From: Hyphomicrobiales bacterium
GTDB lineage: Bacteria > Pseudomonadota > Alphaproteobacteria > Rhizobiales > Rhizobiaceae
Assembly (NCBI GenBank): GCA_900473685.1
Contig: UCNE01000005.1
Location: 1-64,000 of the forward strand
Reading direction: 5' to 3'
DNA length: 64,000 nt
In this document: positions 1,442 to 19,196 of the stretch, one piece after another
Numbering within the stretch: the first letter of the stretch is position 1
How the letters are laid out: every line of letters begins with the position of its first letter
Position numbers and translations under genes: made by a program
Notes under the pieces: generated by a model
What the model saw: the letters and a program-made list of their open reading frames with translations, nothing else
Databases searched by the model: none
What the model was told of the DNA's origin: nothing

Positions 1442-1480
1442 GCAATGCCGGGGCCGGGCACATCCTGAACCCGGCATTGC
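1442..1480 (+). terminator. Hairpin after the binding-protein gene
   Basis: GCAATGCCGGG and CCCGGCATTGC form a perfect 11-bp stem with a 17-base loop directly after the binding-protein stop codon. There is no long T run. Hairpins in this place usually protect the upstream message or partly stop transcription, so that the binding protein is made in excess over the membrane parts. Confidence 0.6.
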
Positions 1481-1505
1481 CTTTCCTGCCTGAAGCGAGC
1501 CCGAC

Positions 1506-2786
1506 ATGACCTATCCCGATACCTATTACCGCCGCACCATGGCCAATGGTGCCGAGCGGCCGACCCTTTCCGGCAGCATCGACTGTGACACCCTGATCAT
1601 CGGTGGCGGCCTTGCCGGCCTCACTACGGCTTTGCAGCTTGCGCGCGCCGGCATTTCCGTTGTCGTGCTGGAGGCCGAAAGCGTCGGCTTCGGCGCATCC
1701 GGCCGCAATGGCGGCTTTGTGAGCCCCGGCTTCGCAACCGGCGGCGATGCGATTGCCCGGGCTACAGGCCAAGAAGCCGCGCACCGGATCCACCGGCTTT
1801 CGATCGAAGGCGTCGACTTCGTTCGCGATACGATCCGCGATCTCGGCATTGTGGATGCCAAGCCGCAGCCCGGCATCATGAGCGTGTTGCGCTACGACGG
1901 CGGCAATAGCTTAAAGCAACATGCCGACGAGATGCGTCGGGAGTACGGCTACGACCTGGAATATTTTGGCACGGACGCAGTGCGTAGCCGGTTGAAATCC
2001 GAGCGTTACTTCCAGGCGTTGCGCGACCCGAAGGCCTTCCATATGCACCCGTTGAACTATCTGCGGGCGGTGGCAAAGGAGATCGAGCGCCTCGGCGGCC
2101 GCATCTATGAAAACTCTCCGGCAACGCGCTGCGATGTCGATGGCGCGGAAAAGCGCGCAATGACCTCTGGCGGCCAGGTGAAGGCCCGCCGCATCGTCTT
2201 CACGACCGGCGGCTATACCGGTTCGCTGATCGGCAGGTTGAGACGTTCGTACCTTCCGATTGCAACCTACGTCATGATCACCGAGGAAGCACCGGATCTC
2301 ATCCGCGAGGCGATCACCACCCGCGATGCGATCGGCGACAACCGCCGGGCAGGCGACTATTATCGTTTGGTGGAGGACGGCAAGCGCATTCTCTGGGGCG
2401 GGCGCATCACGACCCGCGCCGCGTCCCCGGCAGCTCTCGCGCAGGAACTGCGCCGCGAAATGACCGGCACATACCCGCAGCTCAAAGAGCTGAAAACCGA
2501 ACTCGCGTGGTCCGGCCTCATGTCCTATGCCCGCCATCTCATGCCCCAGATCGGCGAAATGCAGCCGGGCGTATGGCATTGCACGGCCTTTGGTGGTCAC
2601 GGACTTAACACGACCGCGATCGGCGGCAAGCTGATTGCGGAAGGGATTCTCGGCCAGTCGGACCGCTACAAACTGTTCAAGCCCTTCGGTCTCGTCTGGG
2701 CCGGTGGTGTCGCGGGGCTCGCCACAGCGCAGCTCACCTATTGGAAATTGCAGGCGCAGGACTGGTGGCGTGAACGCGCCGCCTGA
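1506..2786 (+). CDS. FAD-dependent amine/amino-acid oxidoreductase (DAO family)
   Basis: A 426-residue flavoprotein of the D-amino-acid oxidase/PuuB-like fold. The dinucleotide-binding motif IIGGGLAGLTTALQLARAG lies near residues 30-49, followed by the family motif GFGASGRNGGFV near residues 66-77; the C-terminal half has the GGHGLNTTA region that contacts the flavin. Such enzymes oxidise secondary or primary amines (gamma-glutamylputrescine, N-methyl amino acids, opines, Amadori compounds) to imines. It sits inside an ABC import operon, 19 bases before the permease gene, so it probably acts on the imported compound in the cytoplasm. Together with the frlB/frlD-like genes downstream, oxidative cleavage of a glycated amine or opine is plausible, but the substrate is not shown by sequence. 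Confidence 0.82.
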   Translation: MTYPDTYYRRTMANGAERPTLSGSIDCDTLIIGGGLAGLTTALQLARAGISVVVLEAESVGFGASGRNGGFVSPGFATGGDAIARATGQEAAHRIHRLSIEGVDFVRDTIRDLGIVDAKPQPGIMSVLRYDGGNSLKQHADEMRREYGYDLEYFGTDAVRSRLKSERYFQALRDPKAFHMHPLNYLRAVAKEIERLGGRIYENSPATRCDVDGAEKRAMTSGGQVKARRIVFTTGGYTGSLIGRLRRSYLPIATYVMITEEAPDLIREAITTRDAIGDNRRAGDYYRLVEDGKRILWGGRITTRAASPAALAQELRREMTGTYPQLKELKTELAWSGLMSYARHLMPQIGEMQPGVWHCTAFGGHGLNTTAIGGKLIAEGILGQSDRYKLFKPFGLVWAGGVAGLATAQLTYWKLQAQDWWRERAA

Positions 2787-2804
2787 TCCTGCGGGGGGAC
2801 ATCG

Positions 2805-3776
2805 ATGCTTGGAAGACTGATACTCACCTATCCCGCAACGGCGCGGCGTATCGGCGCCCTGTTCGTTCTTTTTCTCGTTGCAGCAGGCCTTTACTCGCTT
2901 GGCATCAGCTCGGCCTGGATCGGCAAAATCTTCCCGTCGGCCGTCGACTGGCTGAAGGAAAACAAGCAGCTCGGCCGCGCCATATCGGCGATCGCGCTGG
3001 CGTTGATCGTCGCATTCAACTGGAAGCTTCTGCAGCTCCTGCCACGCCGCCAACAGATCGTCGCAGTCTGGCTTGAACTTTTCGCACTGCTGATGCTGTT
3101 CTTCTATTCGTTCGACCTGTCGCTCCCCTTCATCGCCAAGAAGATTGGCTTCATGATCTCGCAGGGTGTCGTGACGACGCTCTACATTTCGGCGATCTCG
3201 ATCGCGATCGCCACGGTGATCGCGCTGGCGGGCGCCATTGCAAAGCTCTCGAAGAACGGCGTGATCTACGGTCTCGCTACCTTCTACACGTCGCTGTTTC
3301 GCGGCCTGCCGCTCCTGATGCAGATCTACATCATCTATCTCGGCCTGCCGCAGGTCGGTTATGTGATTGGGGCGGTTCCCGCCGGCATTCTGGCGCTTTC
3401 GCTCTGCTATGGCGCCTATATGACGGAAATCTTCCGCGCCGGGATCGAGAGTATTCATCGCGGGCAGACGGAGGGCGCGACTGCGCTCGGCCTTAGCCCA
3501 AACCAGACGATGTTCCTCGTCATCCTGCCGCAGGCAATGCGCGTCATCGTACCGCCCACAGGCAACCAGTTCATCGCAATGTTGAAGGATTCATCCCTGG
3601 TATCGGTCGTGGGTGTCTGGGAAATCATGTATCTTGCCCGTACACAGGGCCAGACGGAGTTCCGGCATATCGAAATGCTGATCACCGCCTCGATGATCTA
3701 TTGGGTTCTTTCGATTGGGCTCGAATTTCTTCAGTCTCGCATCGAGGCTCATTTCGGCCGCTTTAATGCCCGCTGA
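2805..3776 (+). CDS. Amino-acid-type ABC transporter permease
   Basis: A 323-residue inner-membrane permease of the HisMQ/GlnP family. The first about 110 residues add two or three membrane segments before the conserved core, longer than the minimal family size of about 220. The core shows the SQGVVTTLYIS start, a FRGLPLLMQIYII segment, and the EAA-like coupling loop EGATALGLSPNQTMFLVILP that docks on the ATPase. The start at 2805 follows a GGGGG-rich ribosome binding region. Only one permease gene is present, so a homodimer is likely. Its end overlaps the start of the EamA permease gene. Confidence 0.9.
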   Translation: MLGRLILTYPATARRIGALFVLFLVAAGLYSLGISSAWIGKIFPSAVDWLKENKQLGRAISAIALALIVAFNWKLLQLLPRRQQIVAVWLELFALLMLFFYSFDLSLPFIAKKIGFMISQGVVTTLYISAISIAIATVIALAGAIAKLSKNGVIYGLATFYTSLFRGLPLLMQIYIIYLGLPQVGYVIGAVPAGILALSLCYGAYMTEIFRAGIESIHRGQTEGATALGLSPNQTMFLVILPQAMRVIVPPTGNQFIAMLKDSSLVSVVGVWEIMYLARTQGQTEFRHIEMLITASMIYWVLSIGLEFLQSRIEAHFGRFNAR

Positions 3777-3780
3777 CGCC

Positions 3781-4653
3781 ATGACGGTGGACATCGCGGC
3801 GATGCCGCAACGATACAATCTGAGAGCCGCATTGGTCGTTACATGCGCTTTTGCGGCGTTCTCCGGCACGGATGCGTTGGTGAAACTTCTCGCACAGACT
3901 TTTCCCGTGCCGCAGGTGACCTTCATGATTACGGTTGCGGCGCTGCTGATCGTAATCGCCTCCGCCGTCCTTTCAGGTGGAGGCAAGGCGCTTTGGCCTC
4001 GCCATCCCGGTCTGGCCTTCGTGCGGGCCGGCCTGCTCGCTGCTGATACCATCCTGATCTACTACGCTTTTGCCAAGCTGCCGCTTTCGGAAGCTTACGT
4101 GCTTGCGTTTCTCGCGCCGGTCCTCGTCGCCATACTCGCATTCATTTTTCTGGGCGAACGGCTGTCACGTATTGGATGGATCGGTGTTCTTCTTGGCTTT
4201 GCCGGGGTGATTGTGGCGCTTCGGCCGGGTGTCGCACCGATGAATCTTGGCCATGCGGCGGCCGTGGGCTCCGCGCTGCTGTTCGCATTTTCGCTGATCA
4301 TCCTGCGCCGCGCGAAAACGACGGAATCCGACACGGCGCTGGTGTTCAGCGTTCTGGCCGTGCTTTCTGTGCTTTCGTTTGTCGTCGCTTTTGCAGGTGG
4401 TGGCGGCTTCGTGCCTGCGGAAACATCGGATCTCACGACGGTCGCCGCGGCGGGGTTTCTGCTTGTTGGCGGTCACGTCCTGCTCGTGCGCGCCTTCCGC
4501 ATTGGCGATGCCTCGGTCGTTGCTCCTTTCCAATATAGCCAGATCGTCTGGGGCTGTGTTTACGGCGCACTGTTATTTGGCGCCCCAATCGAAATTCATA
4601 CGCTTGCCGGCGCTGCGATCATCATCGTGTCGGGCTGGCTGGTTCTGAAGTAA
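3781..4653 (+). CDS. EamA/DMT-family transporter
   Basis: About 290 residues with ten predicted membrane segments arranged as two EamA repeats (each with a conserved [14 protein letters not shown]-like or [12 protein letters not shown]-like pattern). Members of the drug/metabolite transporter superfamily mostly export metabolites or amino acids. The start is uncertain: ATG at 3766, 3781 or 3802 are all in frame and none has a strong ribosome site; 3766 would overlap the permease stop codon. It lies between the permease and the ATPase genes of the importer, so it is probably translated with them, perhaps to remove a by-product of catabolism. Confidence 0.82.
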
Positions 4654-4667
4654 ACGGAGGAGAATTC

Positions 4668-5414
4668 ATGCCACAGTCGATGAACGACGAGATCAAACTT
4701 TCCGGCGTGCACAAATGGTACGGGCAATATCATGCCCTCGACGACATCAATCTCGAAGTTGCCAAGAAGGAACGCATCGTTATCTGCGGGCCATCGGGCT
4801 CTGGGAAATCGACATTGATCCGCTGCATCAACAGGCTTGAAGCACATCAGCAAGGCCAGATCATCGTCGGTGGCATCGAACTCACCGAAAACGAGAAGAA
4901 CATCGAGGAAGTGCGCCGCGAGGTCGGCATGGTCTTCCAGCACTTCAATCTCTTCCCGCATCTGACAATTGTGGAGAACTGTGTGCTTGCCCCGGTCTGG
5001 GTTCGCAAGATGGGCAAGGCCAAAGCGACCGAGATCGCCATGCACTTTCTTGAACGGGTACGTATTGCGGACCAGGCAAACAAGTATCCAGGGCAGCTTT
5101 CCGGTGGCCAGCAGCAGCGTGTCGCCATCGCGCGGGCGCTTTGCATGAACCCGAAGATCATGCTATTCGACGAGCCCACCTCGGCACTGGACCCGGAAAT
5201 GGTCAAGGAAGTACTGGATACGATGGTGTCACTTGCCGAGGAAGGCATGACAATGATCTGTGTCACCCACGAAATGGGCTTTGCCCGTCAGGTTGCCGAC
5301 CGGGTGATCTTCATGGATCAGGGCCGGGTGGTGGAAGAAGCCGCACCTGCCGAATTCTTCGACAATCCTCAGCACGAGCGCAGCCGGCTGTTTCTCAGCC
5401 AGATATTGCATTGA
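4668..5414 (+). CDS. Amino-acid-type ABC transporter ATP-binding protein
   Basis: A 248-residue GlnQ/HisP-type ATPase that drives the importer encoded just upstream. Walker A is GPSGSGKST at residues 41-49, the Q-loop lies in [13 protein letters not shown], the signature is [15 protein letters not shown], Walker B is [14 protein letters not shown], and the switch histidine is in [16 protein letters not shown] ribosome site precedes the ATG. It ends the operon and is convergent with the kinase gene on the other strand. Confidence 0.93.
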
Positions 5415-5416
5415 GC

Positions 5417-5437
5417 CACGCCATAATATTCGGCGTG
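5417..5437. terminator. Weak hairpin between convergent genes
   Basis: CACGCC and GGCGTG form a 6-bp stem with a 9-base AT-rich loop just after the ATPase stop codon, between two convergent genes. No T run follows, so termination activity is uncertain. Confidence 0.3.
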
Positions 5438-5584
5438 ACACTTGCTGGGGCGGGGTATGGACTTTTGCCAGTCTTTTCGGCTTTGCCTGCATCCTGACAG
5501 ATGCCGCGACCATCAATAGGCGGGGAAACAATGCTTCCAGCTCGGCCATTGGGAGGAGCAATGCAGGCGAAGTGAGCCGATAGA

Positions 5585-6397
5585 CTAAAGCGGTTGCGGT
5601 TCCTGCGGAAAGCCTCCGACATGGCCACACGTACGTGCGGCGCAATCACGGCCGGAGATCAGGCTTTCTTCGAGGCTGCCGCCGGGTACATACGCATGCA
5701 GGAAGCCGGCAATGAAACTGTCACCGGCACCGGTTGTGTCGATCACGTCGACAGGCGTGATGCCGGTTTCGGCATGGTCTTTGCCGTCAGTGGCCGCCGA
5801 TCCATCGCCACCAAGCGTCACCACAGCGAGCTTTGCGCCATCGGCAAGGAATCCCTCCATCATCCTTCCAGCCCTTTCGTGATCTTCACCGGCCGAACCA
5901 AAGGCGATGTGAAGTTTGTCGACGCCGAGATGAGCCGCATCGTTGTTGACTGATACATCCTGCGAAACGCTGATGCCGGAACCGGCCACTCTGCGGCGGA
6001 CCAGTCCCCCATCCGCGATCCAGCCGATATGGACGTGATCCATGCCGGCGAGAGCCGTAAAATCCCGCTCGCTCGGCAGGTAATCCCGGCAAACGCCGAA
6101 TTCTTCGAAGGCGAAGATACGGTCGCCCGTCCCGGTATGTTCGATAATCGTATAGGCGGTTTCGCCAGGCCGCATTTGCAGGTGCTCGACGCGCACGCCG
6201 TTGGCAACCAACAAGCCGCGCGTGCGTTCACCATCGGCATCACGGCCGACTGCGCCAAAATACCAGGCCTCATGACCGAGCGCGGCGAGCTGGACGGCGA
6301 CATTGATGGCATTGCCGCCGATGAGCGACTGGCCAACAGGCGGCTGAAAACGATCGACGCAGTTGTCGCCGACGACGGCGAAGCGGAGACGGGACAT
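5585..6397 (-). CDS. PfkB-family sugar kinase, fructoselysine 6-kinase-like
   Basis: A 270-residue ribokinase-fold enzyme. The N-terminal substrate motif GGNAINVAVQLAALG and the C-terminal ATP/anion-hole motif DTTGAGDSFIAGFL (catalytic Asp in GAGD) are intact. Short length and the FAVVGDNCVDRF start resemble FrlD, which phosphorylates fructoselysine on C6 so that the deglycase FrlB can split it. ATG at 6397 was preferred over 6415 because GAGG precedes it. It is the second gene after the SIS-domain gene on the same strand, 131 bases downstream. Substrate is inferred from this pairing; another glycated amine or sugar is possible. Confidence 0.78.
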   Translation of the reverse strand: MSRLRFAVVGDNCVDRFQPPVGQSLIGGNAINVAVQLAALGHEAWYFGAVGRDADGERTRGLLVANGVRVEHLQMRPGETAYTIIEHTGTGDRIFAFEEFGVCRDYLPSERDFTALAGMDHVHIGWIADGGLVRRRVAGSGISVSQDVSVNNDAAHLGVDKLHIAFGSAGEDHERAGRMMEGFLADGAKLAVVTLGGDGSAATDGKDHAETGITPVDVIDTTGAGDSFIAGFLHAYVPGGSLEESLISGRDCAARTCGHVGGFPQEPQPL

Positions 6398-6528
6398 GGA
6401 ACCTCGAATAGTCATTCACAATGGCAGGGCACAATGGCAGGGCCGCGCGCATCGCTTTGATGCCCGCGGCCCCATGGAAGAGTCTCCGATACAGGAAACA
6501 ACCGAAATCGTATCATGCGGATCGCTGC

Positions 6529-7542
6529 TCAGTAGGCAACCTTCTTGTAGTAGCGCCGCGTGGTGAGAGGGTGATTGCGCATCACTTCCAGATGGGCGCT
6601 GATGCGCTCCAGCACGGTTGCCAACAGGATCGGAGAGATCAGGCCACGGACTTCTGCAGAGATGCCCGGCAAGTCGAAACCGGCGGTGTCGAGGACGGTA
6701 AGCTTGTCGGTATAGTTCGGCGCGAAATTTTCAACGCGATCGGCCACCGGACGGCATTCGTCTTCACCCTTGAACAGGATGACACTGACGTTCTTTTCGA
6801 CCAGCTCCAGCGTGCCGTGAAAGAAATCGGACGCATGGACCGGACGGGTGCGAATCCACTGCATTTCCTCAAGGATGCACATGCCGTAGTAGAAGGCTTC
6901 CGGCCACGCATTTCCCGCGCCAGTGACGATGTGGTAGTCCGAGCCGGCCAGGATCTTGGCGAAACCTTCTGCCTTGCCTTCATAAGCGCGCTTCACGTCC
7001 AGCAGCAGCTTCGGCAGGCTTTGCAGCTCACCAACCAGCTGTTCGTAATTCTTGATCTCGCCGCGGTGCTTCATGATCGACAAAGCGATGAACAGCGATT
7101 GCAGATAGAAGGATTCACAGGACGTATCGTCTTCAGCAAAATTGACGAACACATGGTCGCCACCCTTGCCAAGCGGCGTTTCCTCATGGCCAACAAGCGT
7201 CAACACGGTTGCGCCGACTTCCTTGATCTTGGCGAGCAGTGCGACGCTTTCCTTCGTCGTGCCGGACAGTGACGGCATGACCACGATGGAATTTTTCGTG
7301 AGATTGGCCGAGCCGGTGATGAAGAGTTCGGCCGTCAGGTCGATGAAGGCCGGGAAACGCGACTTGCGCTGTAGCAGTTGATGCGCCGGCTGCATGAGGA
7401 TGGCGGCCCCCCCGGTTCCCAGAAAGAAGACGTTTTCTGCTCCGGCAGTGAGGCAGCGCGCGATCACATCGTCGAAGCGCCTTGCAAGTCCAGCAGCGCC
7501 GGATTGAATGCGTAGAAATCTCTCTTCGTCAAAATTCAGCAT
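6529..7542 (-). CDS. SIS-domain sugar isomerase/deglycase, FrlB-like
   Basis: A 337-residue protein with two SIS (sugar isomerase) domains, like the C-terminal part of GlmS and like FrlB, which converts fructoselysine 6-phosphate to glucose 6-phosphate and lysine. Visible phosphosugar-binding motifs are FFLGTGGAAI near residues 38-47 and VVMPSLSGTTKESVAL near residues 88-103. The second half contains the FFHGTLELVE pattern typical of the FrlB/AgaS group. It stands divergent from the GntR regulator and upstream of the kinase gene. Role in deglycation of phosphorylated Amadori compounds is inferred from the kinase, regulator and amino-acid-type importer beside it. Confidence 0.78.
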   Translation of the reverse strand: MLNFDEERFLRIQSGAAGLARRFDDVIARCLTAGAENVFFLGTGGAAILMQPAHQLLQRKSRFPAFIDLTAELFITGSANLTKNSIVVMPSLSGTTKESVALLAKIKEVGATVLTLVGHEETPLGKGGDHVFVNFAEDDTSCESFYLQSLFIALSIMKHRGEIKNYEQLVGELQSLPKLLLDVKRAYEGKAEGFAKILAGSDYHIVTGAGNAWPEAFYYGMCILEEMQWIRTRPVHASDFFHGTLELVEKNVSVILFKGEDECRPVADRVENFAPNYTDKLTVLDTAGFDLPGISAEVRGLISPILLATVLERISAHLEVMRNHPLTTRRYYKKVAY

Positions 7543-7605
7543 GGAAAACTCTCTGTTGTGATGATCATCGCCGATCGCCTCTAAGCCCTATCGACTCCGG
7601 CAATG

Positions 7606-7623
7606 TTGTAAGACAACTGACAT
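7606..7623. promoter_or_regulatory. Candidate GntR operator in the divergent frlB-like/gntR promoter
   Basis: TTGTAAG, four bases, CTGACAT: an inverted repeat (5 of 7 pairs) with the same half-sites and spacing as 560-577. It lies 63 bases upstream of the frlB-like start codon, in the 208-base divergent gap. Confidence 0.45.
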
Positions 7624-7735
7624 CTTGATTTGTTGGTGTCAAGCGGTCTGCTCACCTCTCTAATTAGCAATCCGTGAAGTTCCATTTCCCGTAACCGCTT
7701 GTTCACTCAATCGCCATCACTTGACGTTTGTGTAT

Positions 7736-7746
7736 TTGTCAGACAA
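7736..7746. promoter_or_regulatory. Candidate autoregulatory GntR site
   Basis: TTGTCAGACAA is a short palindrome (TTGT, three bases, ACAA) ending five bases before the chosen start codon of the regulator. The position would let the regulator block its own transcription or translation. The same core occurs at 560-570 and, in part, at 7606-7616. Confidence 0.35.
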
Positions 7747-7750
7747 GAGA

Positions 7751-8512
7751 ATGAAACTGTTACAACCTGTGAGGAACGCCTTGGACGAACCCCTTCGCGA
7801 TACGCGCACCCTGGTGATCCAACTTCGCGATCGCCTTGCCGACCTGATTCGCGACGAAGGTCTCCAGCCTGGTGACAAGCTGCCAACGGAAGCGCAGCTG
7901 ACTGCCCGTTTCAAAATTTCACGCCCTGCTCTGCGCGAAGCGCTCAAGCTGCTTGAACAGGACGATCTCATCTTTGTCGAACATGGGCGTGGCCGTTTCG
8001 TATCGGCAATTTCCGCGGTCCAGGTCGATCGGCCGATCACGGTGTTTGAAAGCGTCACCGACATGGCGCGTCAATACGGTTACTCGCCGAAGAACAAGGT
8101 TTTGTCGATCTCCGAAGAGGCGCCGGACGCAACGGTCGCCAGGCAGTTGCGACTGGAAACGGGGGAGCGCGTCATCCGCATCGAGCGCCTGCGGCTCGAG
8201 AACGATACGCCGATCATGTATTGCCTCGATTATGTGCCGCGTAGCATCATTTCCGCACGGCTCTACGACATCGACTGGAGCGGTTCACTGCTTTCCGTGC
8301 TCGAGCAATACAAGCAACGGCCGCGCATGTCGGCCGCATCCGTGACGGCTGTCATGCTGCCGGATGACGTCGTCGAGCGCAACGACCTGCGGGATTTCGG
8401 TCCGGCTCTGCTCATTACAGAAACCTGTTTCAGCGCGGCCGGCGTGCCTGTCAACTACGCCATCGACTACCATCGCGGCAGCCATTTTTCTTTCAGCCTC
8501 GTGCGCAAGTAG
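7751..8512 (+). CDS. GntR-family transcriptional regulator with UTRA ligand domain
   Basis: About 253 residues. Residues 15-80 form a winged helix of the GntR type (LRDRLADLIRDEGLQPGDKL, then a recognition helix in ISRPALREALKLLEQ). The C-terminal part from about residue 95 is a UTRA domain, which binds sugars or other small effectors (ETGERVIRIERLRLENDTPI and the terminal YHRGSHFSFSLVRK pattern). ATG at 7751 was chosen; an in-frame TTG at 7721 is less likely. Divergent from frlB-like and flanked by matching inverted repeats, it probably represses the deglycase/kinase genes and the transporter operon until a phosphorylated ligand appears. Confidence 0.85.
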   Translation: MKLLQPVRNALDEPLRDTRTLVIQLRDRLADLIRDEGLQPGDKLPTEAQLTARFKISRPALREALKLLEQDDLIFVEHGRGRFVSAISAVQVDRPITVFESVTDMARQYGYSPKNKVLSISEEAPDATVARQLRLETGERVIRIERLRLENDTPIMYCLDYVPRSIISARLYDIDWSGSLLSVLEQYKQRPRMSAASVTAVMLPDDVVERNDLRDFGPALLITETCFSAAGVPVNYAIDYHRGSHFSFSLVRK

Positions 8513-11186: not shown

Positions 11187-12407
11187 TCAGGCCACTTTCT
11201 CGGTCACGCCTGTTTGCGATGTTTCCATCTTCGGCGTCACGGCTTCAAAAAGCGGCAGCGCGGCAGCACCCAGGGCTGCCGTCAACTGGCCCGTCTGGCC
11301 GCGCATGACGCGAGGCAGGGCACGTGTACGGCGGCTCGCCACCGAGACGGGCAGCGCCTGCAGCGCATCTATGATGTCATCGATAACCGCATCCGGCAGC
11401 GCACCGCCCAGAATGAGTGTCTCCGGATCGAGCACATTTTCGAGCATCGCGACCATGGGCGACAGATATTCCGCCGTCTCCGCAATCCATTCCTGGACGA
11501 CCGGATTGCCCTCTCTGTGCATAACCTCGATGGCTTCGAAATCGGAATTCTCGAAGCCAGCTGCTGCGAGCTTTTCCTTTAGTGCGTAGACCGAGGCGTA
11601 GCGTTCCAGGCAACCGTTCTGGCCGCAGGCACAAGGGCGGCCGCGCGGAGCGACGACGACATGGCCGATTTCGCCGGCATTGCCAAAGGCACCGCGAAAC
11701 GGTGCGCCATCATGGATAAGCCCGAGCCCGACGCCGACGCCGAAATAGATCATGCCGAAATTCGAGATCGCCCGTCCGGCGCCGAACAAGCGTTCGCTAA
11801 CGGCTGCCGCATTGGCATCGTTTTCGACGATAACCGTTTCCCCGCTGGCCGCGCTCAGAACCGCTGCCGCGTCGATCGATCCCCAGCCCGGCAGCGTGGT
11901 CGGACCGACGGAACTCATGCCATCGATTTCGAATGGGCCGGGCATGACAACGCCGATGCCCAGCAACTTCGACGGAAACTGCGCGCGAACGGCTTCAACC
12001 TGTCGCGCGAAAAACGGAACGATGTATTCCGGCCGGGTATCCTGCACGGCGACGATCGACCGCGAACGAACCTGTCCGGAGAGATCGAGGACGGTGGTCA
12101 CTATGTGATCGGCCGCAATTTCGGTGCCGATGGTGACGGCCCCATCCGGATTGACTGCAAACTGGATGGGTGGCTGGCCACGGCCCGATCGCAGGCGGCC
12201 GATTTCCATCAGCAGTTCTTCGCCAACGAGTTCATCGACAATGTTGGCCACGGCCTGGGCCGTCAGTTGCGTGAGCTTGGCAATGTGCATGCGCCCGAGA
12301 GAGCCGTGCATCCGCACGACATCCAGCACGACGCGCCGGTTGTGATCCCGGCTGCGTTCCGGATTTTTCCCGATCGCGATCTGTTGCTTGCCTGACTGCC
12401 GCGCCAT
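11187..12407 (-). CDS. ROK-family transcriptional regulator
   Basis: A 406-residue repressor of the NagC/XylR type. Residues about 15-75 form a winged helix-turn-helix (NRRVVLDVVRMHGSLGRMHI). The rest is a ROK sugar-kinase-like domain with the glycan-binding motif ENDANAAAVSERLFG and the zinc-binding cluster GRPCACGQNGCLERYAS (CXCGXXGCXE). ATG at 12407 is preferred to an upstream frame extension because AAAGGTGG precedes it and the protein then begins like other ROK repressors. It is divergent from the sugar ABC operon and next to an AT-rich palindrome (12463-12492), so it probably represses both directions and responds to the imported sugar or its deacetylated form. Confidence 0.88.
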   Translation of the reverse strand: MARQSGKQQIAIGKNPERSRDHNRRVVLDVVRMHGSLGRMHIAKLTQLTAQAVANIVDELVGEELLMEIGRLRSGRGQPPIQFAVNPDGAVTIGTEIAADHIVTTVLDLSGQVRSRSIVAVQDTRPEYIVPFFARQVEAVRAQFPSKLLGIGVVMPGPFEIDGMSSVGPTTLPGWGSIDAAAVLSAASGETVIVENDANAAAVSERLFGAGRAISNFGMIYFGVGVGLGLIHDGAPFRGAFGNAGEIGHVVVAPRGRPCACGQNGCLERYASVYALKEKLAAAGFENSDFEAIEVMHREGNPVVQEWIAETAEYLSPMVAMLENVLDPETLILGGALPDAVIDDIIDALQALPVSVASRRTRALPRVMRGQTGQLTAALGAAALPLFEAVTPKMETSQTGVTEKVA

Positions 12408-12462
12408 GTCGACCACCTTTGCCTCTGCGACATAGGGATAGACCCAGGGTACGGCAGACCGC

Positions 12463-12492
12463 AATAGAATAATTAAACTAAATTATCTTATT
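12463..12492. promoter_or_regulatory. AT-rich inverted repeat, candidate ROK operator
   Basis: AATAGAATAATT, six bases, AATTATCTTATT is a 12-bp near-perfect inverted repeat in the 281-base divergent gap. ROK repressors such as NagC and XylR bind AT-rich palindromes of this kind. TTGACA at 12491-12496 overlaps its right edge and could be a -35 element for the transporter operon, although no good -10 is seen. Confidence 0.5.
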
Positions 12493-12688
12493 GACAAAAC
12501 GCATCGCCCAGATGAGCCTAGGGAGATCGCGAACCTGCGATCATGAAAAAGGGAAGGGTGGCCTTCGGGTCTTCGGAGATCCTCCCCGACAAGCAAATCG
12601 AAGCGCTGAGCAAAACGTTGCAGGTAGCTTTGGGGAACCAGATGAGCACGAGCGGAATCACCACCGGCTCGGCATAAGGAGGATTACT

Positions 12689-13945
12689 ATGCGTCGCGGA
12701 ATTCTATTGGCCGGTCTTTTTACGGGTATCAGCGTCTTTGCCGTCAACAGTGCCCAGGCTGTTGAGATCGAATATTGGCAGTATGTCTACGAAACCCGCA
12801 TCAAGGCGATGGATCAACTGATCGAGAATTTCGAGAAGGCCAATCCGGATATTACCGTCAAGCAGACAACATTCCCTTATGCCGACTACCAGACCCGCGT
12901 CGTTGCCGCCAACATGTCCGGCAGTGGCCCCGATGTAATGCAGCTTTTCTATGGCTGGCTTGACCAGTTCATCGCTGGCGGTCTCGTCCAGCCCTTGCCC
13001 GTAGATGCTTTTCCGCACGACAAGATCGAAAGCGAGTTCTTTCCGATCGTCTCTGCCATGAAGCGTGGCGATGACTATTACGGCCTGCCGACCGCCGTTC
13101 GTTCGCTGGCGCTGTTCTATAACAAGAAGCTGTTCCAGGAAGCTGGCCTCGATCCGAAGAGCCCTCCGAAGACGGTCGATGAATTCGTTGCAGCCGCTGA
13201 AAAGACTGCGAAGCATGATGCCAATGGCAATATGACCGTGGCCGGCACAACGATGGATATGGCCGGGCAGGACCACCAGTGGTGGCGTGAGGTGTTGATC
13301 CGCCAGAACGGCGGCGAGCCGTATACGGCCGATTATTCCAAGGTAACGTACAACAACGATGCTGGCATCAAGGCGCTGAAGTTCTACACAGACCTGCAGA
13401 CCGAACAGAAGGTTGGCGAAGTTGGCTTCATGGATGAAGGCCAGGCCGCTTTCCGCGCCGGCCGTGCGGCGATGACCATCGATGGCACCTTCCGTCTCGG
13501 CTCCTTCAAGAGCATCAAGGACTTCGAATGGGGTGTTACTGAACTGCCGACCAATGCCGCGGGCATACGTTCGAATTACGCCAGCTATTTTGCCAATGGC
13601 ATCGGTGCCAAGGTGAGCGGCGAGAAGCTCGAAGCTTCGAAGAAGTTCCTTGCCTACATCTCTTCGCCGGAAGCCATGAAGGTCTGGCTGGATACGGTCG
13701 GCGAACTGCCAGCCCGCCGTTCTGCCGCTCTGACGGAGGCCAATCTGGCCGATCCGATCTATTCACCGTTCCTGAAGGCGCTGGATTACGCTCACACAAC
13801 GCTGTTTGTCGACGAAGCCGCCCAGCGCCAGACGGCCATCGACATGGTCAATCGCGTGCTGCTGGAAAAGCAGTCTCCTGAGGACTCCATTGCTCAGGCT
13901 GCAACAGCCGAGCAGGAGATCATCGACGCTGCGAAGATCAAATAA
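12689..13945 (+). CDS. Sugar ABC transporter substrate-binding protein (CUT1)
   Basis: A 418-residue SBP_bac_1-family binding protein. Signal peptide at residues 1-26 (MRRGILLAGLF, hydrophobic core, AQA cleavage). The mature protein starts VEIEYWQYVYE and carries the family pattern of NFEKANPDITVK and PDVMQLFYGW. An AAGGAGG ribosome site precedes ATG 12689; longer in-frame starts upstream lack one. The typical ligands of this family are mono- to oligosaccharides or polyols. It begins the operon that continues with two permeases, a lyase-like gene, an ATPase and a kinase. Confidence 0.92.
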   Translation: MRRGILLAGLFTGISVFAVNSAQAVEIEYWQYVYETRIKAMDQLIENFEKANPDITVKQTTFPYADYQTRVVAANMSGSGPDVMQLFYGWLDQFIAGGLVQPLPVDAFPHDKIESEFFPIVSAMKRGDDYYGLPTAVRSLALFYNKKLFQEAGLDPKSPPKTVDEFVAAAEKTAKHDANGNMTVAGTTMDMAGQDHQWWREVLIRQNGGEPYTADYSKVTYNNDAGIKALKFYTDLQTEQKVGEVGFMDEGQAAFRAGRAAMTIDGTFRLGSFKSIKDFEWGVTELPTNAAGIRSNYASYFANGIGAKVSGEKLEASKKFLAYISSPEAMKVWLDTVGELPARRSAALTEANLADPIYSPFLKALDYAHTTLFVDEAAQRQTAIDMVNRVLLEKQSPEDSIAQAATAEQEIIDAAKIK

Positions 13946-13954
13946 GGGCAAGCC

Positions 13955-14902
13955 ATGAGCTCCGCACCTGGAAATACGGATGGGACGGCCGCGCGCCGCC
14001 CCGCCGCATCCCTTTGGGATCGGCTATCCATGCGCCACAAGCGCCTCATTTGGGTCTGGACATTCCTGGCCCTGCCGATCCTGTTTTACTGCGTCATCCG
14101 GTTTTACCCGACACTGCAGGCCTTCTATCTGTCCTTCACCAACTGGAACCTGATGAAGCCGCCGAAATTCATCGGCTTTGCCAATTACGTGAAGCTCTAC
14201 AATGATCCGCAATTCTGGAAGGTTTTTCGCAACACGTTCACCTATCTGATTATCGGCACGCCGGTTAGCCTGCTGATTTCCTTCGTGATCTCTTTCTATC
14301 TCGATCGGGTGCGCATTCTCCATGGGCTGATCAGGGCTCTCTATTTCCTGCCGTTTCTGACGACGGCTGCCGCTATGGCCTGGGTCTGGCGCTGGTTCTA
14401 TCAACCGGCACCGATTGGCGTCATCAACGACGTGCTCGGCCTGATCGGACTGCCGCAGCAAGCCTTCATACGCTCCGTCGATCAGGCTTTGCCGTCAATC
14501 ATGGTGACCTCGATCTGGGCTGGTCTCGGGTTTCAGATCATCATTTTCATGGCTGGTCTTCGCGCCATTCCCTCGACCTATTACGAGGCGGCGAAAATTG
14601 ATGGATTAGGCGAATGGCCGATCCTGTGGAAAATCACGCTGCCGCTGCTAAAGCCCACCACCGTCTTTCTCGTCGTCTTTTCCTCGATCGGTTTCCTGCG
14701 AATTTTCGATCAGGTCTACAACATGACGACCAATGATCCGGGCGGCCCGCTCGGCTCAACCAAACCGCTGGTGTTGATGATCTATCAGACGGCCTTTTCA
14801 TCTTACAATATGGGCTATGCGGCAGCGCAAACCGTCGTGCTCTTTGCCATCCTGCTGGCTGTGTCACTTCTGCAGCTCTGGATACTGAGGGAACGCAAAT
14901 GA
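13955..14902 (+). CDS. Sugar ABC transporter permease (MalF-type)
   Basis: A 315-residue inner-membrane permease with six or more segments. The coupling motif is visible as YYEAAKIDGLGEWPILWKITLP (EAA-loop). An N-terminal stretch rich in Pro, Arg and Ala precedes the first segment near residue 30. It starts nine bases after the binding-protein gene and overlaps the next permease gene by four bases (ATGA). Confidence 0.92.
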   Translation: MSSAPGNTDGTAARRPAASLWDRLSMRHKRLIWVWTFLALPILFYCVIRFYPTLQAFYLSFTNWNLMKPPKFIGFANYVKLYNDPQFWKVFRNTFTYLIIGTPVSLLISFVISFYLDRVRILHGLIRALYFLPFLTTAAAMAWVWRWFYQPAPIGVINDVLGLIGLPQQAFIRSVDQALPSIMVTSIWAGLGFQIIIFMAGLRAIPSTYYEAAKIDGLGEWPILWKITLPLLKPTTVFLVVFSSIGFLRIFDQVYNMTTNDPGGPLGSTKPLVLMIYQTAFSSYNMGYAAAQTVVLFAILLAVSLLQLWILRERK

Positions 14903-15753
14903 CGGCACTTGCCCAGAATACCGCGCCGCTCGCCAAAGCGAATATTCGCCCCGGCCGCATCATTGTCTGGACGCTGCTGTTCATTGGCGGCCTTGTGATG
15001 ATCACGCCACTGCTGTTCATGTTCTCCACATCGCTGAAGACAGCAAGCCAGGTTTACGATTTGCGGCTGATCCCAGCGGCCCCGACACTGCAGAACTACA
15101 TCACCGTGCTCTCCGATGGCCGGTTCATGCGTTGGTTCCTGAACTCCACCATCGTCGCCTGCACGGTAACATTGTCGAACGTATTCTTCGACAGTCTCGT
15201 CGGTTACACGCTTGCCAAATTTGCGTTTCGCGGCCGCCAGCTGATTTTTCTGGCGATCTTGTCGACGCTGATGATCCCGACGGAAATGCTGGTTATTCCC
15301 TGGTATCTGATGTCGAGCCAGCTCGGCTGGCTGGATAGCTACTGGGGCATCATGTTCCCTGGCATGATGACGGCTTTCGGCACCTTCCTGATGAAGCAGT
15401 TTTTCGAAACGGTGCCGAACGACTTTCTGGAAGCCGCCCGTATCGATGGCCTCAACGAATTCCAGATCTGGTGGAAAGTGGCGATGCCGCTGGTTACCCC
15501 GGCTCTGTCCGCGCTGGCGATCTTTACCTTTCTTGGCAATTGGACGGCCTTTTTCTGGCCGCTGATCGTGGTGACCAGCCGTGAACTCTATACGCTGCCG
15601 GTCGGGCTTTCGAGCTTTGCCGTCGAGCAATCCATTCAATGGGAAATGATCATGACCGGCGCGGCACTTGCCACTTTGCCGACGCTGCTCGTCTTCCTGG
15701 TGCTGCAGCGCTACATCGTGCGCGGCGTCATGCTGGCCGGTCTGAAAGGATAA
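14899..15753 (+). CDS. Sugar ABC transporter permease (MalG-type)
   Basis: A 284-residue permease. The coupling loop FLEAARIDGLNEFQIWWKVA is near residues 175-194, and the family N-terminus (membrane segment followed by MFSTSLKT) is intact. It forms a heterodimer with the product of the gene just upstream, with which it is translationally coupled. Confidence 0.92.
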   Translation: MTALAQNTAPLAKANIRPGRIIVWTLLFIGGLVMITPLLFMFSTSLKTASQVYDLRLIPAAPTLQNYITVLSDGRFMRWFLNSTIVACTVTLSNVFFDSLVGYTLAKFAFRGRQLIFLAILSTLMIPTEMLVIPWYLMSSQLGWLDSYWGIMFPGMMTAFGTFLMKQFFETVPNDFLEAARIDGLNEFQIWWKVAMPLVTPALSALAIFTFLGNWTAFFWPLIVVTSRELYTLPVGLSSFAVEQSIQWEMIMTGAALATLPTLLVFLVLQRYIVRGVMLAGLKG

Positions 15754-15757
15754 GACA

Positions 15758-17272
15758 GTGCCCAAGAGCAATCCACGCCTGAATGACAAAAGCGTCTTTC
15801 CCGATCCGGTCTATAAGGAAACGGTGCTGCGTCCGCTTTTCGACGGTGCCAAGACCCATTATGTCGATGGTTTCCGGCGCATCGACCGTGCGCATCTGGT
15901 AATGCTGGTTGAAACAGGCATCCTCGACGGGACGCAGGCGTCCAAGATCGCCGCGGCGCTTGAGGCAATTGATCGCGAGGTTGATCCGGCCGGGCTCGTT
16001 TATACTGGCGAAGTCGAAGACTTCTTCTTCCTGATCGAAAAGGAGCTGAAAGCGCGTATCGGGGCCGATGTCGCGGGGCGCCTGCATACCGCGCGCTCGC
16101 GCAATGATATCGACCACACGCTGTTCAAGCTTGGCCTGAAGGCGCGTATCGATGCGCTGATGGTCAAGGCGCATACATTGCTCGCCGCACTGATAGAAGC
16201 TGCTGATCGCGAGAAGGCGACCCTGATTGTCGCCTATACCCACGGCCAGCCGGCCCAGCCGACCACATTTGGTCACTATCTGTCAGCTGCAATCGAGGTG
16301 TTCATCCGCGACATCGAACGGTTGTCCGAAGCCCGCCGGATCGTCGATCTCAGCCCGATGGGGGCTGCCGCCATCACCACATCAGGCTTCCCGGTTGACC
16401 GGGCAAGAGTGGCCGAATTGCTCGGCTTTCGCGCAGCCTTGCAGAACTCATACAGCTGCATTGCCGCCGTCGATTATATCACCTCCACCTACAGCGCCAT
16501 CGAGCTGATGTTCCTGCATATCGGCCGGCTTATTCAGGATTTTCAGTTCTGGACGAGTTTCGAAGTTGGCCAGATCTATGTGCCGAATGCACTGGTACAG
16601 ATCTCGTCGATCATGCCGCAGAAGCGCAATCCGGTGCCGATCGAGCATATGCGGCTTCTGGCCAGCCAGACGTTTGGCCGCGCCCGCACGATGCTTGATA
16701 TCATGCACAACACGCCGTTCACCGATATGAACGACAGCGAAGGCGAAACGCAGTCGGTTGGCTATGAGGCCTTCCACGCAGCCGGCCGGGTGCTGGATCT
16801 GATGGCCTCGTTCGTCGCTGCGATCCGGATCGATCCCGAGAAAGTCGCCATCAACATCCGCCGCTCCTGCATTACAATTACCGAGCTTGCGGATTCTCTG
16901 GTGCGGCTCGAAGGTCTTTCATTCCGCCAGGCACACGAGATCGCCGCGTCGGTGGCGCGCTCGGTCGTGGCCAGCGGTGGTGGGCTTGAACATGACGGTT
17001 ATGCTCCGTTTTTGGCCGCATTCGAGGCTCTGACGGGCCGTAAGCCTTCAGTCGATATGGACCAGTTCGCCGAACTCGTCTCGCCGGAGCACTTCGTTGC
17101 AGTACGCACCCGTTTCGGCGGTCCGGCACCGGAACCGATGGCGCAGGCGCTGCGCGCATATCGAAACAAGTCTTCCGCATTTGCCGCGGAAGCGCAGGAA
17201 AACGCTGCGCGGGAAGCCAAGGCATCCGTCGAACTCGATACAAAATTCAAAGCATTGATGGGAGCAGCCTGA
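15758..17272 (+). CDS. Argininosuccinate-lyase-like enzyme of the fumarase/aspartase superfamily
   Basis: A 504-residue protein related to argininosuccinate lyase (usual length about 460). Superfamily motifs are visible: HTARSRND at residues 110-117, the catalytic Thr-His pair T161 H162 in YTHGQPAQPTT, and the flexible loop SSIMPQKRNP at residues 283-292 with the serine that acts as base. It departs from true ArgH at places tied to substrate binding: the PLGSGALAG motif is replaced by PMGAAAITTSG, and the KNPD end of the loop reads RNPVP. It starts with GTG. Lying between sugar permease and sugar ATPase genes, it probably cleaves fumarate (or a related acid) from an imported sugar-linked or amino compound, not argininosuccinate. 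Confidence 0.78.
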   Translation: MPKSNPRLNDKSVFPDPVYKETVLRPLFDGAKTHYVDGFRRIDRAHLVMLVETGILDGTQASKIAAALEAIDREVDPAGLVYTGEVEDFFFLIEKELKARIGADVAGRLHTARSRNDIDHTLFKLGLKARIDALMVKAHTLLAALIEAADREKATLIVAYTHGQPAQPTTFGHYLSAAIEVFIRDIERLSEARRIVDLSPMGAAAITTSGFPVDRARVAELLGFRAALQNSYSCIAAVDYITSTYSAIELMFLHIGRLIQDFQFWTSFEVGQIYVPNALVQISSIMPQKRNPVPIEHMRLLASQTFGRARTMLDIMHNTPFTDMNDSEGETQSVGYEAFHAAGRVLDLMASFVAAIRIDPEKVAINIRRSCITITELADSLVRLEGLSFRQAHEIAASVARSVVASGGGLEHDGYAPFLAAFEALTGRKPSVDMDQFAELVSPEHFVAVRTRFGGPAPEPMAQALRAYRNKSSAFAAEAQENAAREAKASVELDTKFKALMGAA

Positions 17273-18306
17273 TGGCAAACATAGAATTGCAGGGTCTGCT
17301 CAAACGCTATGGCAAGCTGGACGTCGTCCACGGCATCGATCTGACTATTGCCGATGGCGAATTCGTCGTTTTCGTCGGCCCGTCCGGCTGCGGCAAGTCA
17401 ACGACGTTGCGGATGATCGCCGGACTAGAGGACATTTCCGGCGGAACGCTGCGCATCGGCGGCGAAGTCGTCAATGAGCGCGAACCCAAACAGCGCAACA
17501 TCGCCATGGTGTTTCAGAACTATGCGATATACCCGCATATGAGCGTGCGGCAGAATATCGGTTTCGGGCTCTACACGTCGAAAATCTCCCAGGCCGAAAA
17601 AAACAAGCGGATCGACGAGACGGCAAATGTGCTCGGATTGACCGATTATCTTTCCCGTCGTCCGGCCGCCCTTTCCGGCGGCCAGCGCCAGCGTGTTGCA
17701 ATCGGTCGCGCCATGGTGCGTAACCCGTCCGCCTTCCTGTTTGATGAGCCGCTTTCCAATCTGGATGCGCAATTGCGCGCACAGATGCGTATCGAGATCA
17801 AGCGCCTGCATCAAAGGCTCGGCACGACGATCGTCTATGTCACTCACGATCAGATCGAAGCGATGACCATGGCCGACCGGATCGTCGTGATGCGGGATGG
17901 CCATATCCTGCAGGCGGGGACCCCGATGAATATCTACGAAAATCCCGTCGATGTGTTTACTGCCAAATTCATCGGCAGCCCGTCAATGAACCTCGTTACC
18001 GGGACCTGGACAGATGATGGCGCCCGCATCGGCTTGGAAGGGGCGCATCTGATCGGCGTCAGACCGCATGATCTCCTGGTCGGTGAGACGCAAGACGGCG
18101 GATTCAATCTCACCGGTACGGTCACCGCGGTCGAGCCGCTCGGCTCGGAAACACTGGTGCATTTCGATACGGCCGGTACGTCGGTCATTGCAACCGCCCC
18201 GGCAAAACTGCTACCGGCCGTTGGCAGCTCGGTCAGCGCCCATGCCAAACCCGGCTCGCTTTATCTTTTCGATGCCAAAACGGAAAAGGCCCTCGGCCGC
18301 CAATGA
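17272..18306 (+). CDS. Sugar ABC transporter ATP-binding protein (UgpC/MalK type)
   Basis: A 344-residue ATPase. Walker A GPSGCGKST at residues 36-44, signature LSGGQRQRVAIGRAM, Walker B FLFDEPLSNLDAQ, switch histidine in VTHDQIEAMT, and a C-terminal OB/TOBE domain from about residue 240 (IGVRPHDL). Its start codon overlaps the stop of the lyase gene (TGATG). It powers the importer of this operon. Confidence 0.94.
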   Translation: MANIELQGLLKRYGKLDVVHGIDLTIADGEFVVFVGPSGCGKSTTLRMIAGLEDISGGTLRIGGEVVNEREPKQRNIAMVFQNYAIYPHMSVRQNIGFGLYTSKISQAEKNKRIDETANVLGLTDYLSRRPAALSGGQRQRVAIGRAMVRNPSAFLFDEPLSNLDAQLRAQMRIEIKRLHQRLGTTIVYVTHDQIEAMTMADRIVVMRDGHILQAGTPMNIYENPVDVFTAKFIGSPSMNLVTGTWTDDGARIGLEGAHLIGVRPHDLLVGETQDGGFNLTGTVTAVEPLGSETLVHFDTAGTSVIATAPAKLLPAVGSSVSAHAKPGSLYLFDAKTEKALGRQ

Positions 18307-19196
18307 CGCTTAAGAACGAGACAAGATCGGCCGTACTCAGTATCGGCCGGATTTATTGCGACCTGATTTTCACCGGATTGCAGGGCATGCCGGTGCTCGG
18401 CCGCGAGATTTTTGCCGAGAACATGGATATAGCGGCCGGCGGTGGCGCCTTTATCATGGCTGCCTATTGTGCGCATGCGGGCCGCAAGACGGCGCTTCTT
18501 TCGCGCCTTGGCACCGACGCTTTGTCGATGGGGCTCGAAGGTCAGCTGGCAGCGAGCAATGTCGATTTGCGGTTCCTCGACCGCGCTGTCGATGCCGGAC
18601 CACAGGTTACTGTCGCCATTATCAACGATCAGGAGCGGGCATTTCTGTCGCGCCGCGCCGGTTCTGCGGAACCGGCGACGCTTTCAAGCGCTCTCGAATG
18701 GCCCGAAGCGCGCCACATGCACATTGCCGAATTTGCGACACTTGTCGAAATTCCGGGGCTGGTTGCAGCTGCGAAAGAAAAGGGTCTTACCGTGTCGCTC
18801 GATCCGAGCTGGGACGAAACCCTGATCTTCGGTAGGGATTTTCTGGCCAAATGCGAAGGTATCGACATCTTTTTGCCGAATGTCGAGGAGGCTGCAGCGA
18901 TCACCGGCGAGACGGAGCCGTTAAAGGCACTGGACAGGCTTGCTAAGGTGTTCCCGGTGATTGCGCTGAAAGCCGGTTCCGAGGGGGCATATCTCGCGAA
19001 CCGTGGAAATGTGCTGCACCGTGGCGCAAAGCCCGTACAGGTGATCGACACCACGGGGGCGGGCGATGCCTTCAATGCCGGCTTTATCCATAGCTGGCTC
19101 GATGGACATGACGACGAGCACTGCCTCTGCGACGCCATCGCCATGGGCACTCTTGCCGTCCAAGCAGCAGGCGGCGCGACAATTTTGAAAGGTTAG
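18303..19196 (+). CDS. PfkB-family carbohydrate kinase
   Basis: A 297-residue ribokinase-family enzyme; the ATG overlaps the ATPase stop. Motif 1 appears as AAGGGAFIMAAYCAHAGRKT, and motif 2 as DTTGAGDAFNAGFI with the catalytic Asp. The internal PNVEEAAAITGE region is typical of the KdgK/ribokinase branch. As last gene of a sugar import operon it probably phosphorylates the sugar released by the deacetylase and lyase steps. The exact sugar is unknown. Confidence 0.87.
   Translation: MTLKNETRSAVLSIGRIYCDLIFTGLQGMPVLGREIFAENMDIAAGGGAFIMAAYCAHAGRKTALLSRLGTDALSMGLEGQLAASNVDLRFLDRAVDAGPQVTVAIINDQERAFLSRRAGSAEPATLSSALEWPEARHMHIAEFATLVEIPGLVAAAKEKGLTVSLDPSWDETLIFGRDFLAKCEGIDIFLPNVEEAAAITGETEPLKALDRLAKVFPVIALKAGSEGAYLANRGNVLHRGAKPVQVIDTTGAGDAFNAGFIHSWLDGHDDEHCLCDAIAMGTLAVQAAGGATILKG

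Follow-up and report, generated by a model that had tools for sequence, protein, structure and literature searches.

An ArgH-like lyase in a conserved sugar importer unit of Alphaproteobacteria and its possible role in the use of the bacillithiol core

A stretch of 64,000 nt from contig UCNE01000005.1 of a Hyphomicrobiales bacterium (Rhizobiaceae; assembly GCA_900473685.1), referred to here as the window, carries a sugar importer operon in which a lyase resembling argininosuccinate lyase (ArgH) is encoded together with a PfkB-family kinase, back to back with genes for a large PIG-L-family protein and a ROK-family repressor. The plus-strand operon runs solute-binding protein (SBP), permease, permease, ArgH-like lyase, ATPase and PfkB kinase, with spacings of -3 to 9 bases between its genes, and the PIG-L and ROK genes diverge from it on the minus strand (Table 1; residue numbers throughout are those of the window proteins). 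All of the components named in a first-pass annotation of this DNA, i.e. the ROK and PIG-L proteins, the importer, the ArgH-like lyase and the PfkB kinase, are present as divergent units; the span given there (11187-19196) holds the ROK gene and the operon, with the PIG-L gene lying just outside it, adjoining ROK on the same strand. The importer belongs to the CUT1 class of ATP-binding cassette (ABC) transporters, with the SBP and ATPase assigned by family models and the permeases by the annotation of their relatives. The SBP probably begins at its ATG, as the TTG at 12491 was rejected for beginning a promoter-like TTGACA box; for the ROK protein, to which a NagC-type regulator model aligns from residue 42, the TTG at 12464 was rejected in favour of the ATG at 12407.

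Table 1. Positions of the genes and candidate regulatory features of the divergent unit (ORF, open reading frame)
Feature	Position	Strand	Basis
PIG-L/LmbE-family amidase (putative), 813 aa	8735..11176	-	PF02585, 59 bits
ROK-family repressor	11187..12464 (ORF); probable ATG start 12407	-	PF00480, 160 bits
Palindrome TAATTAAACTAAATTA (family consensus TAATTCAAGTAAATTA), candidate ROK operator	12470..12485	.	Strict pattern and consensus
TTGACA, candidate -35 box of importer operon	12491..12496	+	Sequence; read as TTG start by ORF calling
CUT1 SBP	12689..13945	+	SBP_bac_1, 133 bits; ATG 12689 behind AGGAGG; apparent signal peptide by eye
Sugar ABC permease A	13955..14902	+	Translation; relatives annotated as sugar ABC permease
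Sugar ABC permease B	14899..15753	+	Translation; relatives annotated as carbohydrate ABC permease
ArgH-like lyase, 504 aa, proposed glucosaminyl-malate (or -aspartate) lyase	15758..17272	+	Lyase_1 and ASL_C2, signature residues, own clade
UgpC/MalK-type importer ATPase	17272..18306	+	NF008653, 457 bits (cut-off 432)
PfkB-family sugar kinase, proposed glucosamine kinase	18303..19196	+	PF00294, 127 bits

The lyase scores 309.5 bits against the ArgH model TIGR00838, and because it passes the public cut-off of 279.5, such proteins bear argH labels in public records; most of the annotated alphaproteobacterial records inspected name it argH or argininosuccinate lyase. Just as the first-pass annotation stated, T161/H162 and the serine loop (S283-P292) are kept, being invariant in 29/29 aligned rows, the window included, and the catalytic and fumarate-binding residues of the superfamily (R115, N116, T161, H162, S283, K289 and N291) are constant in those 29 rows and in 92/92 alphaproteobacterial rows. 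The changed substrate motifs reported at the same time are likewise seen, with V293, D323, N325 and E328 standing where ArgH has D, Y, K and Q. When position 238 is added, the residues that we take to be on the arginine side in ArgH (R238, D293, Y323, K325 and Q328, at positions taken from the alignment) read V, V, D, N and E in the window lyase. Within 26 ArgH rows, R238 is found in all 26, D293, Y323 and Q328 in 24 (not L098 and L104) and K325 in 23, with R in one.

On the leaving-group side, the window lyase carries a signature of its own, F91, D119, Y232, Q281, V293, H297, H317, N318, F321, D323 and N325, which includes the motif HNxPFxDxND. This signature is constant in 92/92 alphaproteobacterial rows (window and close copies included) and 7/7 Deinococcus rows, and is complete in the two rows from Bosea and Shinella except for T325 in Bosea; none of the 26 comparison ArgH rows has it in full, L098 and L104 holding a part of it (F91, V293 and F321 common to both). 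Among ten further alphaproteobacterial loci, eight read HNTPFTDMND, L166 reads RNTPFADMND and L170 reads HNTPYTDMND. Since the alphaproteobacterial and Deinococcus lyases are 32% identical, a signature common to both phyla suggests a common substrate. A tree of 74 rows places the alphaproteobacterial, Bosea/Shinella and Deinococcus lyases on one side of a branch and ArgH with ethylenediaminedisuccinate (EDDS) lyase on the other (support 100/98), with a warning from the program that the long Deinococcus and alphaproteobacterial branches may be falsely drawn together. A separate ArgH is encoded on contig C25 of the window genome and is 29% identical to the window lyase over 459 aligned positions. 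As judged from its residues and its position in the tree, the window lyase is not ArgH and belongs to a separate clade. Modelled as a monomer, it has EDDS lyase as its best fold match (template modelling score, TM, 0.81), followed by argininosuccinate lyases.

The PIG-L protein comprises a PIG-L domain (~41-300), a helical linker, a beta-sandwich (~383-596) and a ThuA-like domain (~602-813). Its metal motif, H51-P-D53-D54 with H174/H175 ~120 residues further on, is invariant in 37 aligned rows and has the form described for the LmbE/PIG-L family, i.e. HXD1D2 plus H with a spacer of 97-148 (PMC4101496). The predicted model (predicted local distance difference test score, pLDDT, 87.7) gives fold matches for the PIG-L domain to MshB (Z 21.5; root-mean-square deviation 3.1 over 235 residues), LnmX (20.6), diacetylchitobiose deacetylase (19.8) and BshB (18.1), and for the C-terminal domain to STM3548 (Z 17.3) and the ThuA-like 1t0b (Z 15.5). 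A long PIG-L protein of Deinococcus wulumuqiensis has BshB1 as its best model, at 58 bits and thus under the cut-off of 182.5. According to PMC4101496, the LmbE-like enzymes identified by 2014 all act on an N-acetyl- or N-acylglucosamine core. By analogy with the characterised PIG-L enzymes, which mostly act on N-acylglucosamine, the presence of this protein suggests an N-acylglucosamine substrate.

Conservation of the gene set, which the first-pass annotation had proposed as a check, extends across Alphaproteobacteria and, in rearranged form, to Deinococcus. When relatives of the window lyase were collected at one genome per species, 222 were found and the best 80 (75-99% identity, chiefly Rhizobiales) were kept; these and five more make up 85 loci, and linkage counts leave out the four with an incomplete upstream flank or the two with an incomplete downstream flank. 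In the upstream-complete loci, the SBP, permease A and permease B are each present in 81/81, ROK in 80/81 and PIG-L in 76/81 (L085 being scored as positive though its copy sits 2 kb off in opposite orientation), and in the downstream-complete loci the ATPase is present in 83/83 and PfkB in 75/83. The gene set is also carried on plasmids of Thalassospira, Loktanella, Parasedimentitalea, Roseinatronobacter and Qingshengfaniella. A ROK-family kinase takes the place of PfkB in Roseomonas, Loktanella and L167, and in Roseomonas the importer, lyase, ROK regulator, ROK kinase and the deaminase NagB-II stand together without PIG-L beside them. Three of seven Deinococcus lyase loci encode ROK, lyase, long PIG-L, SBP, permeases, a short PIG-L and a kinase, and the D. 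deserti locus has this set minus the long PIG-L; in Deinococcus psychrotolerans (L130), a long PIG-L gene lacks an adjoining lyase gene, the lyase being encoded on another plasmid. Locus L133, which carries no annotation, was left out of the comparison. Since several lineages replace the kinase or lack it at the locus, the unit is not defined by it. A Pseudochrobactrum-like copy of the whole unit also appears in a record titled Bacillus subtilis SK6B4 (L052), probably a contaminated or mislabelled assembly.

The lyase and the long PIG-L protein also occur together at the level of genomes. Across 385 alphaproteobacterial genomes, searched with profile thresholds of E 1e-120 for the lyase and E 1e-40 for long PIG-L (that both scans drew the same 385 is judged from shared genome labels), the lyase is found in 12 and long PIG-L in 10, all 10 being within the 12 lyase genomes; in one of these (G428) they are encoded on separate contigs. 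The lyase genomes without long PIG-L are G598, whose unit (L169) has NagB-II beside it, and G603 (L168). A hypergeometric probability of ~4e-18 assumes independent genomes, but 4/12 lyase genomes belong to family f136 and 2/12 to f118, and the raw counts are preferred; a second co-occurrence probability rests on an assumed number of families and is not relied on. In the f136 loci L162-L164, lyase and long PIG-L are divergent and adjacent, and peptide-type SBP_bac_5 genes adjoin the lyase, with a further SBP_bac_5 gene and a permease after PIG-L in L162. A CUT1 importer was not found at L162-L164, a region where 5/10 ORFs given to Pfam matched no family and may be shadow frames. That lyase and PIG-L stay adjacent there despite the changed importer indicates that the two go together. 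Chance proximity of the genes was considered and ruled out by conservation and co-occurrence.

The identity of the sugar is suggested by glucosamine-6-phosphate (GlcN-6-P) deaminases. A scan of 97 loci, before ten were added, located NagB at L124, L084 and L085 and NagB-II at L122, L117, L026, L061, L063, L068 and L118 (10/97 in total); NagB-II also stands at L169, among the later ten, and a second Loktanella strain (L131) repeats L124. With the NCBIfam GlcN-6-P deaminase models, the NagB proteins score 227-251 bits, one of three being over the cut-off of 236.9, and the NagB-II proteins 293-318 bits, under the cut-off of 430; this second scan covered the loci other than L061, L063 and L068, whose NagB-II calls come from the 97-locus scan. 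At L026, L061, L063, L068 and L117, NagB-II directly follows PfkB, and the same five are all of the PIG-L-less loci among the 81. None of their five genomes gave a PIG-L protein match in a search that did find a sixth genome, with linked PIG-L. In L026 and L061, DhaK/DhaL-like genes (by eye, from ORF starts) occupy the place where PIG-L would stand. The window genome has a NagB-II-like gene on contig C27, at 283 bits also under the cut-off. As two unrelated deaminase families have been recruited to one operon, it can be argued that the sugar leaves as GlcN-6-P, and the sugar is probably glucosamine.

Regulation of the two divergent units appears to be shared, as the first-pass annotation had supposed. 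A palindrome with consensus TAATTCAAGTAAATTA abuts TTGACA between them, both matching a strict pattern in 66/82 loci; of the 16 misfits, L066, L080, L084 and L086 have a variant, TAACTCAAGTAGATTA, beside TTGACA, and the intergenic sequence of L117-L121 has no TTGACA match. The palindrome is a good candidate for a ROK site serving both directions.

From these elements we propose that the unit is catabolic and that its imported substrate is an N-acylglucosamine bearing a C4 dicarboxylate, with (N-acyl-)glucosaminyl-L-malate, the bacillithiol core, as the likeliest candidate; as a whole, this proposal has in our estimate nearly an even chance of being right. The broader class, an N-acylglucosamine conjugate from which the window lyase would release fumarate, we consider probable, while the bacillithiol core as the particular substrate is put forward more tentatively. 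The CUT1 importer would take up the conjugate, and the PIG-L protein would strip off the acyl substituent on nitrogen, either acetyl or, should the intact thiol be taken up, cysteinyl, to leave glucosaminyl-malate. The ArgH-like lyase would then draw the C3 proton off the malyl group, with loss of the sugar oxygen from C2, to form fumarate and glucosamine, a reaction that would follow the mechanism of argininosuccinate lyase at the same 2S centre with a C-O instead of a C-N bond. The malate of N-acetylglucosaminyl (GlcNAc)-L-malate is 2S, like the aspartate part of argininosuccinate. The PfkB kinase would convert glucosamine to GlcN-6-P, from which NagB or NagB-II, encoded within the cluster or, in other lineages, elsewhere, would yield fructose-6-phosphate and ammonia; the ROK protein would repress both divergent units until the sugar is present.

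The choice of malate rests on three of the enzymes: PIG-L points to an N-acylglucosamine, the lyase to release of fumarate from a succinyl unit whose C2 bears the leaving group, and NagB to glucosamine, and GlcNAc-L-malate meets all three without extra assumptions. This compound is made by BshA and deacetylated by BshB en route to bacillithiol (PMC4360819, PMC6282198). PMC4360819 gives bacillithiol as Cys-GlcN-malate and lists it for D. radiodurans, and PMC8301015 describes Deinococcus radiodurans as making it. In the window genome, BshC (PF10079) was not found by a search that matched 3/14 control genomes, and without BshC the substrate would come from outside. The pathway could serve turnover of the cell's own thiol in Deinococcus, where the set has its second arrangement, and scavenging in Alphaproteobacteria. 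The first-pass annotation had suggested breakdown of an N-acetylated sugar attached to either a dicarboxylic acid or an amino acid, with fumarate as a product and a new use of the lyase family. That reading gains support from the linkage of the genes even across phyla, the clade of the lyase apart from ArgH and the recurring deaminases, which point to glucosamine, and it is sharpened here, except that the kinase it had counted in is no defining part; the bacillithiol core is a proposal of the present analysis, not of the earlier one.

Several observations weigh against this interpretation. We know of no ArgH-family lyase that cuts a sugar-malate bond. The best sequence models for the window PIG-L, Mca (36 bits) and MshB (30 bits), are far under their cut-offs, the BshB models TIGR04000 and TIGR04001 give no match to it at E 1e-3, and its fold matches include GalB (Z 18.2), a hydratase with the PIG-L fold, so that the fold alone is no proof of an amidase. 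Deaminases are found in a minority of loci, 87/97 having neither NagB nor NagB-II in the stretch seen, and the NagB-II gene of L118 is near the operon but outside it. Parts of the unit can be missing: PfkB is absent from 8/83 downstream-complete loci, 3/7 Deinococcus loci have lyase, SBP and permeases only, without PIG-L or kinase, the Bosea and Shinella loci have importer and lyase under another regulator, again without PIG-L or kinase, and L168 has neither PIG-L nor deaminase, its genome (G603) lacking long PIG-L. As for the lyase itself, a Geminicoccaceae ArgH-like row from an unrelated context has 4/11 signature residues (Y232, H297, N318 and F321), position E328 is G in Deinococcus, Deinococcus KNUC1210 has S161, and the structural model has low confidence at residues 281-286, part of the serine loop.

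Other gene clusters were noted in the window and elsewhere. Positions 557-8512 of the window hold a separate Amadori-type cluster with an amino-acid ABC transporter, a DadA-like flavin adenine dinucleotide (FAD) oxidoreductase (by eye), a small PfkB kinase, a FraB/GfrF-like SIS deglycase and a GntR regulator. On a plasmid of Agrobacterium sp. 33MFTa1.1 (L148, 244-10324), genes for asparaginase, GntR, an amino-acid ABC transporter, MmgE/PrpD, an ArgH-like lyase, a FrlB-like SIS protein and a FrlD-like kinase form a fructose-asparagine-type cluster with its own lyase, 26.5% identical to that of the window. A plasmid of Variovorax sp. SRS16 (L147) has at 6986-8494 an annotated argH, flanked on one side by an amino-acid ABC transporter with agmatinase and on the other by a gene for an aspartate/glutamate racemase; the product of this argH lacks equivalents of R115/N116 in the alignment. 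Beside the unit at L079 lie a second PIG-L-like gene (120-1880; 44% identical) and an oxidase-like gene (1962-3137; by eye).

The main rival explanation keeps the unit as described but has the lyase cut a C-N bond in a glucosamine- or sugar-aspartate adduct, of N-succinyl or Amadori type, with fumarate and an amino sugar as products. Argininosuccinate lyase and EDDS lyase, the two characterised relatives compared, both belong to the C-N lyases, and the best fold match is the latter, which forms N-substituted aspartates from amines and fumarate (PMC12363623); in addition, a different ArgH-like lyase occurs in the Agrobacterium Amadori-type cluster, and such a cluster adjoins the window unit. 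Against an Amadori substrate, NagB and NagB-II indicate a 2-amino-glucose rather than fructosamine, and PIG-L would have no obvious role on an Amadori compound. The kinase, SIS and GntR genes of the neighbouring cluster recur beside the lyase unit only in L008 among 81 loci compared, some with incomplete flanks, and this SIS gene is present in 0/79 of the others, so that the frl-type deglycase is not part of the conserved unit. An Amadori pathway for the window unit was considered on account of these neighbours and was rejected, the neighbouring set being seen again only in L008, and we regard a C-N substrate for the window lyase as unlikely. Comparable weight goes to the view that glucosamine and fumarate are indeed the products but of some other malyl conjugate, an ether for example, that derives from a polysaccharide, an antibiotic or a plant metabolite. 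Nothing in the sequence names a natural source, peptide-type SBP_bac_5 genes accompany the pair in L162-L164, and CUT1 importers in general suit neutral or larger glycosides. However, GlcNAc-malate would fit each enzyme without extra steps, and to our knowledge no common malyl conjugate also needs a PIG-L amidase, which makes a different conjugate improbable.

Two further explanations were rejected and are given very little credence. If the ArgH-like protein were simply an additional argininosuccinate lyase encoded within a sugar operon, its passing of the ArgH cut-off and the usual argH label would be accounted for, and the two Loktanella records show, a few kb past PIG-L and nagB, arginine deiminase, argF and arcC, a point that also tells against the bacillithiol proposal. 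These Loktanella salsilacus genes, for arginine deiminase, ornithine carbamoyltransferase and carbamate kinase (L124, 15676-18831; L131, 15995-19150), are probably chance neighbours and are the only arginine genes noticed near the lyase unit of this clade, in loci that were not systematically scanned for such genes. A second ArgH is ruled out by the swap of leaving-group-side residues for other invariant ones, by the separate clade and by the separate genomic ArgH on contig C25. The other rejected explanation, breakdown of aminopolycarboxylates, for example EDDS or iminodisuccinate, draws on the nearness of the fold to EDDS lyase; it is ruled out by context, since the sugar importer, PIG-L, ROK, kinase and NagB would have no role there, and by residues, as the substrate-near Q159, D290 and Y320 of EDDS lyase (PMC12363623) become H162, V293 and D323 in the window lyase, the EDDS lyase letters in the alignment being those of a D290M/Y320M variant.

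Were the glucosaminyl-malate proposal true, it would provide a concrete pathway for the use of bacillithiol and a new bond type (C-O) for the ArgH family. It would also correct a misannotation that passes the official ArgH cut-off and supply a signature for recognising such lyases. In that case Deinococcus and many Alphaproteobacteria associated with soil and plants would scavenge a bacterial thiol or turn it over, an activity hidden under the argH name. Among the portions of papers covered by a literature search, no catabolic pathway for bacillithiol was found, its biosynthesis being known, and a 2013 paper gives metabolic degradation as one possible cause of a fall in bacillithiol, proof of which 'remains to be seen' (PMC4065351). 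The same kind of search found no paper joining argininosuccinate lyase with PIG-L and a sugar ABC transporter, and, by title, none fitting argininosuccinate lyase with Amadori compounds. It is possible, though we would not put it at even odds, that the unit is the first pathway for eating bacillithiol or the glucosaminyl-malate core, by way of a new glucosaminyl-malate C-O lyase of the argininosuccinate lyase family.

Compared with known systems, the window lyase shares with ArgH (TIGR00838) the fold, T161/H162, the S283-N291 loop, R115/N116 and a score over the cut-off, but differs at positions 91, 119, 232, 281, 293, 297, 317, 318, 321, 323 and 325, in its clade and in its sugar-catabolic context. 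With the EDDS lyase of Chelativorans sp. BNC1 it has in common the closest fold, the fumarate/substituted-succinate chemistry that we propose and the same conserved R, N, T, S, K and N, although identity is 28% over 434 aligned positions and the three substrate-near residues are replaced. The window PIG-L resembles MshB, Mca, BshB and Bca, which act on N-acylglucosamine glycosides, in fold and in the HXDD plus H motif; unlike these, it has 813 aa with added beta-sandwich and ThuA-like parts, matches their subfamilies weakly or not at all, and is encoded in a catabolic importer cluster. Amadori pathways (frl, fra, soc) employ an ABC transporter, a PfkB kinase and sometimes an SIS protein on a sugar adduct. 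The window unit likewise has transporter and kinase and, as proposed, a sugar adduct for substrate, but it adds a lyase and PIG-L, and the SIS protein in its loci, where present, is NagB-II-like. In the catabolism of N-acetylmuramic acid, the MurQ etherase frees lactate from an amino sugar by elimination on the sugar side; the window lyase would similarly part a carboxylic acid from an amino sugar, but with an unrelated fold and with fumarate rather than lactate as the acid released.

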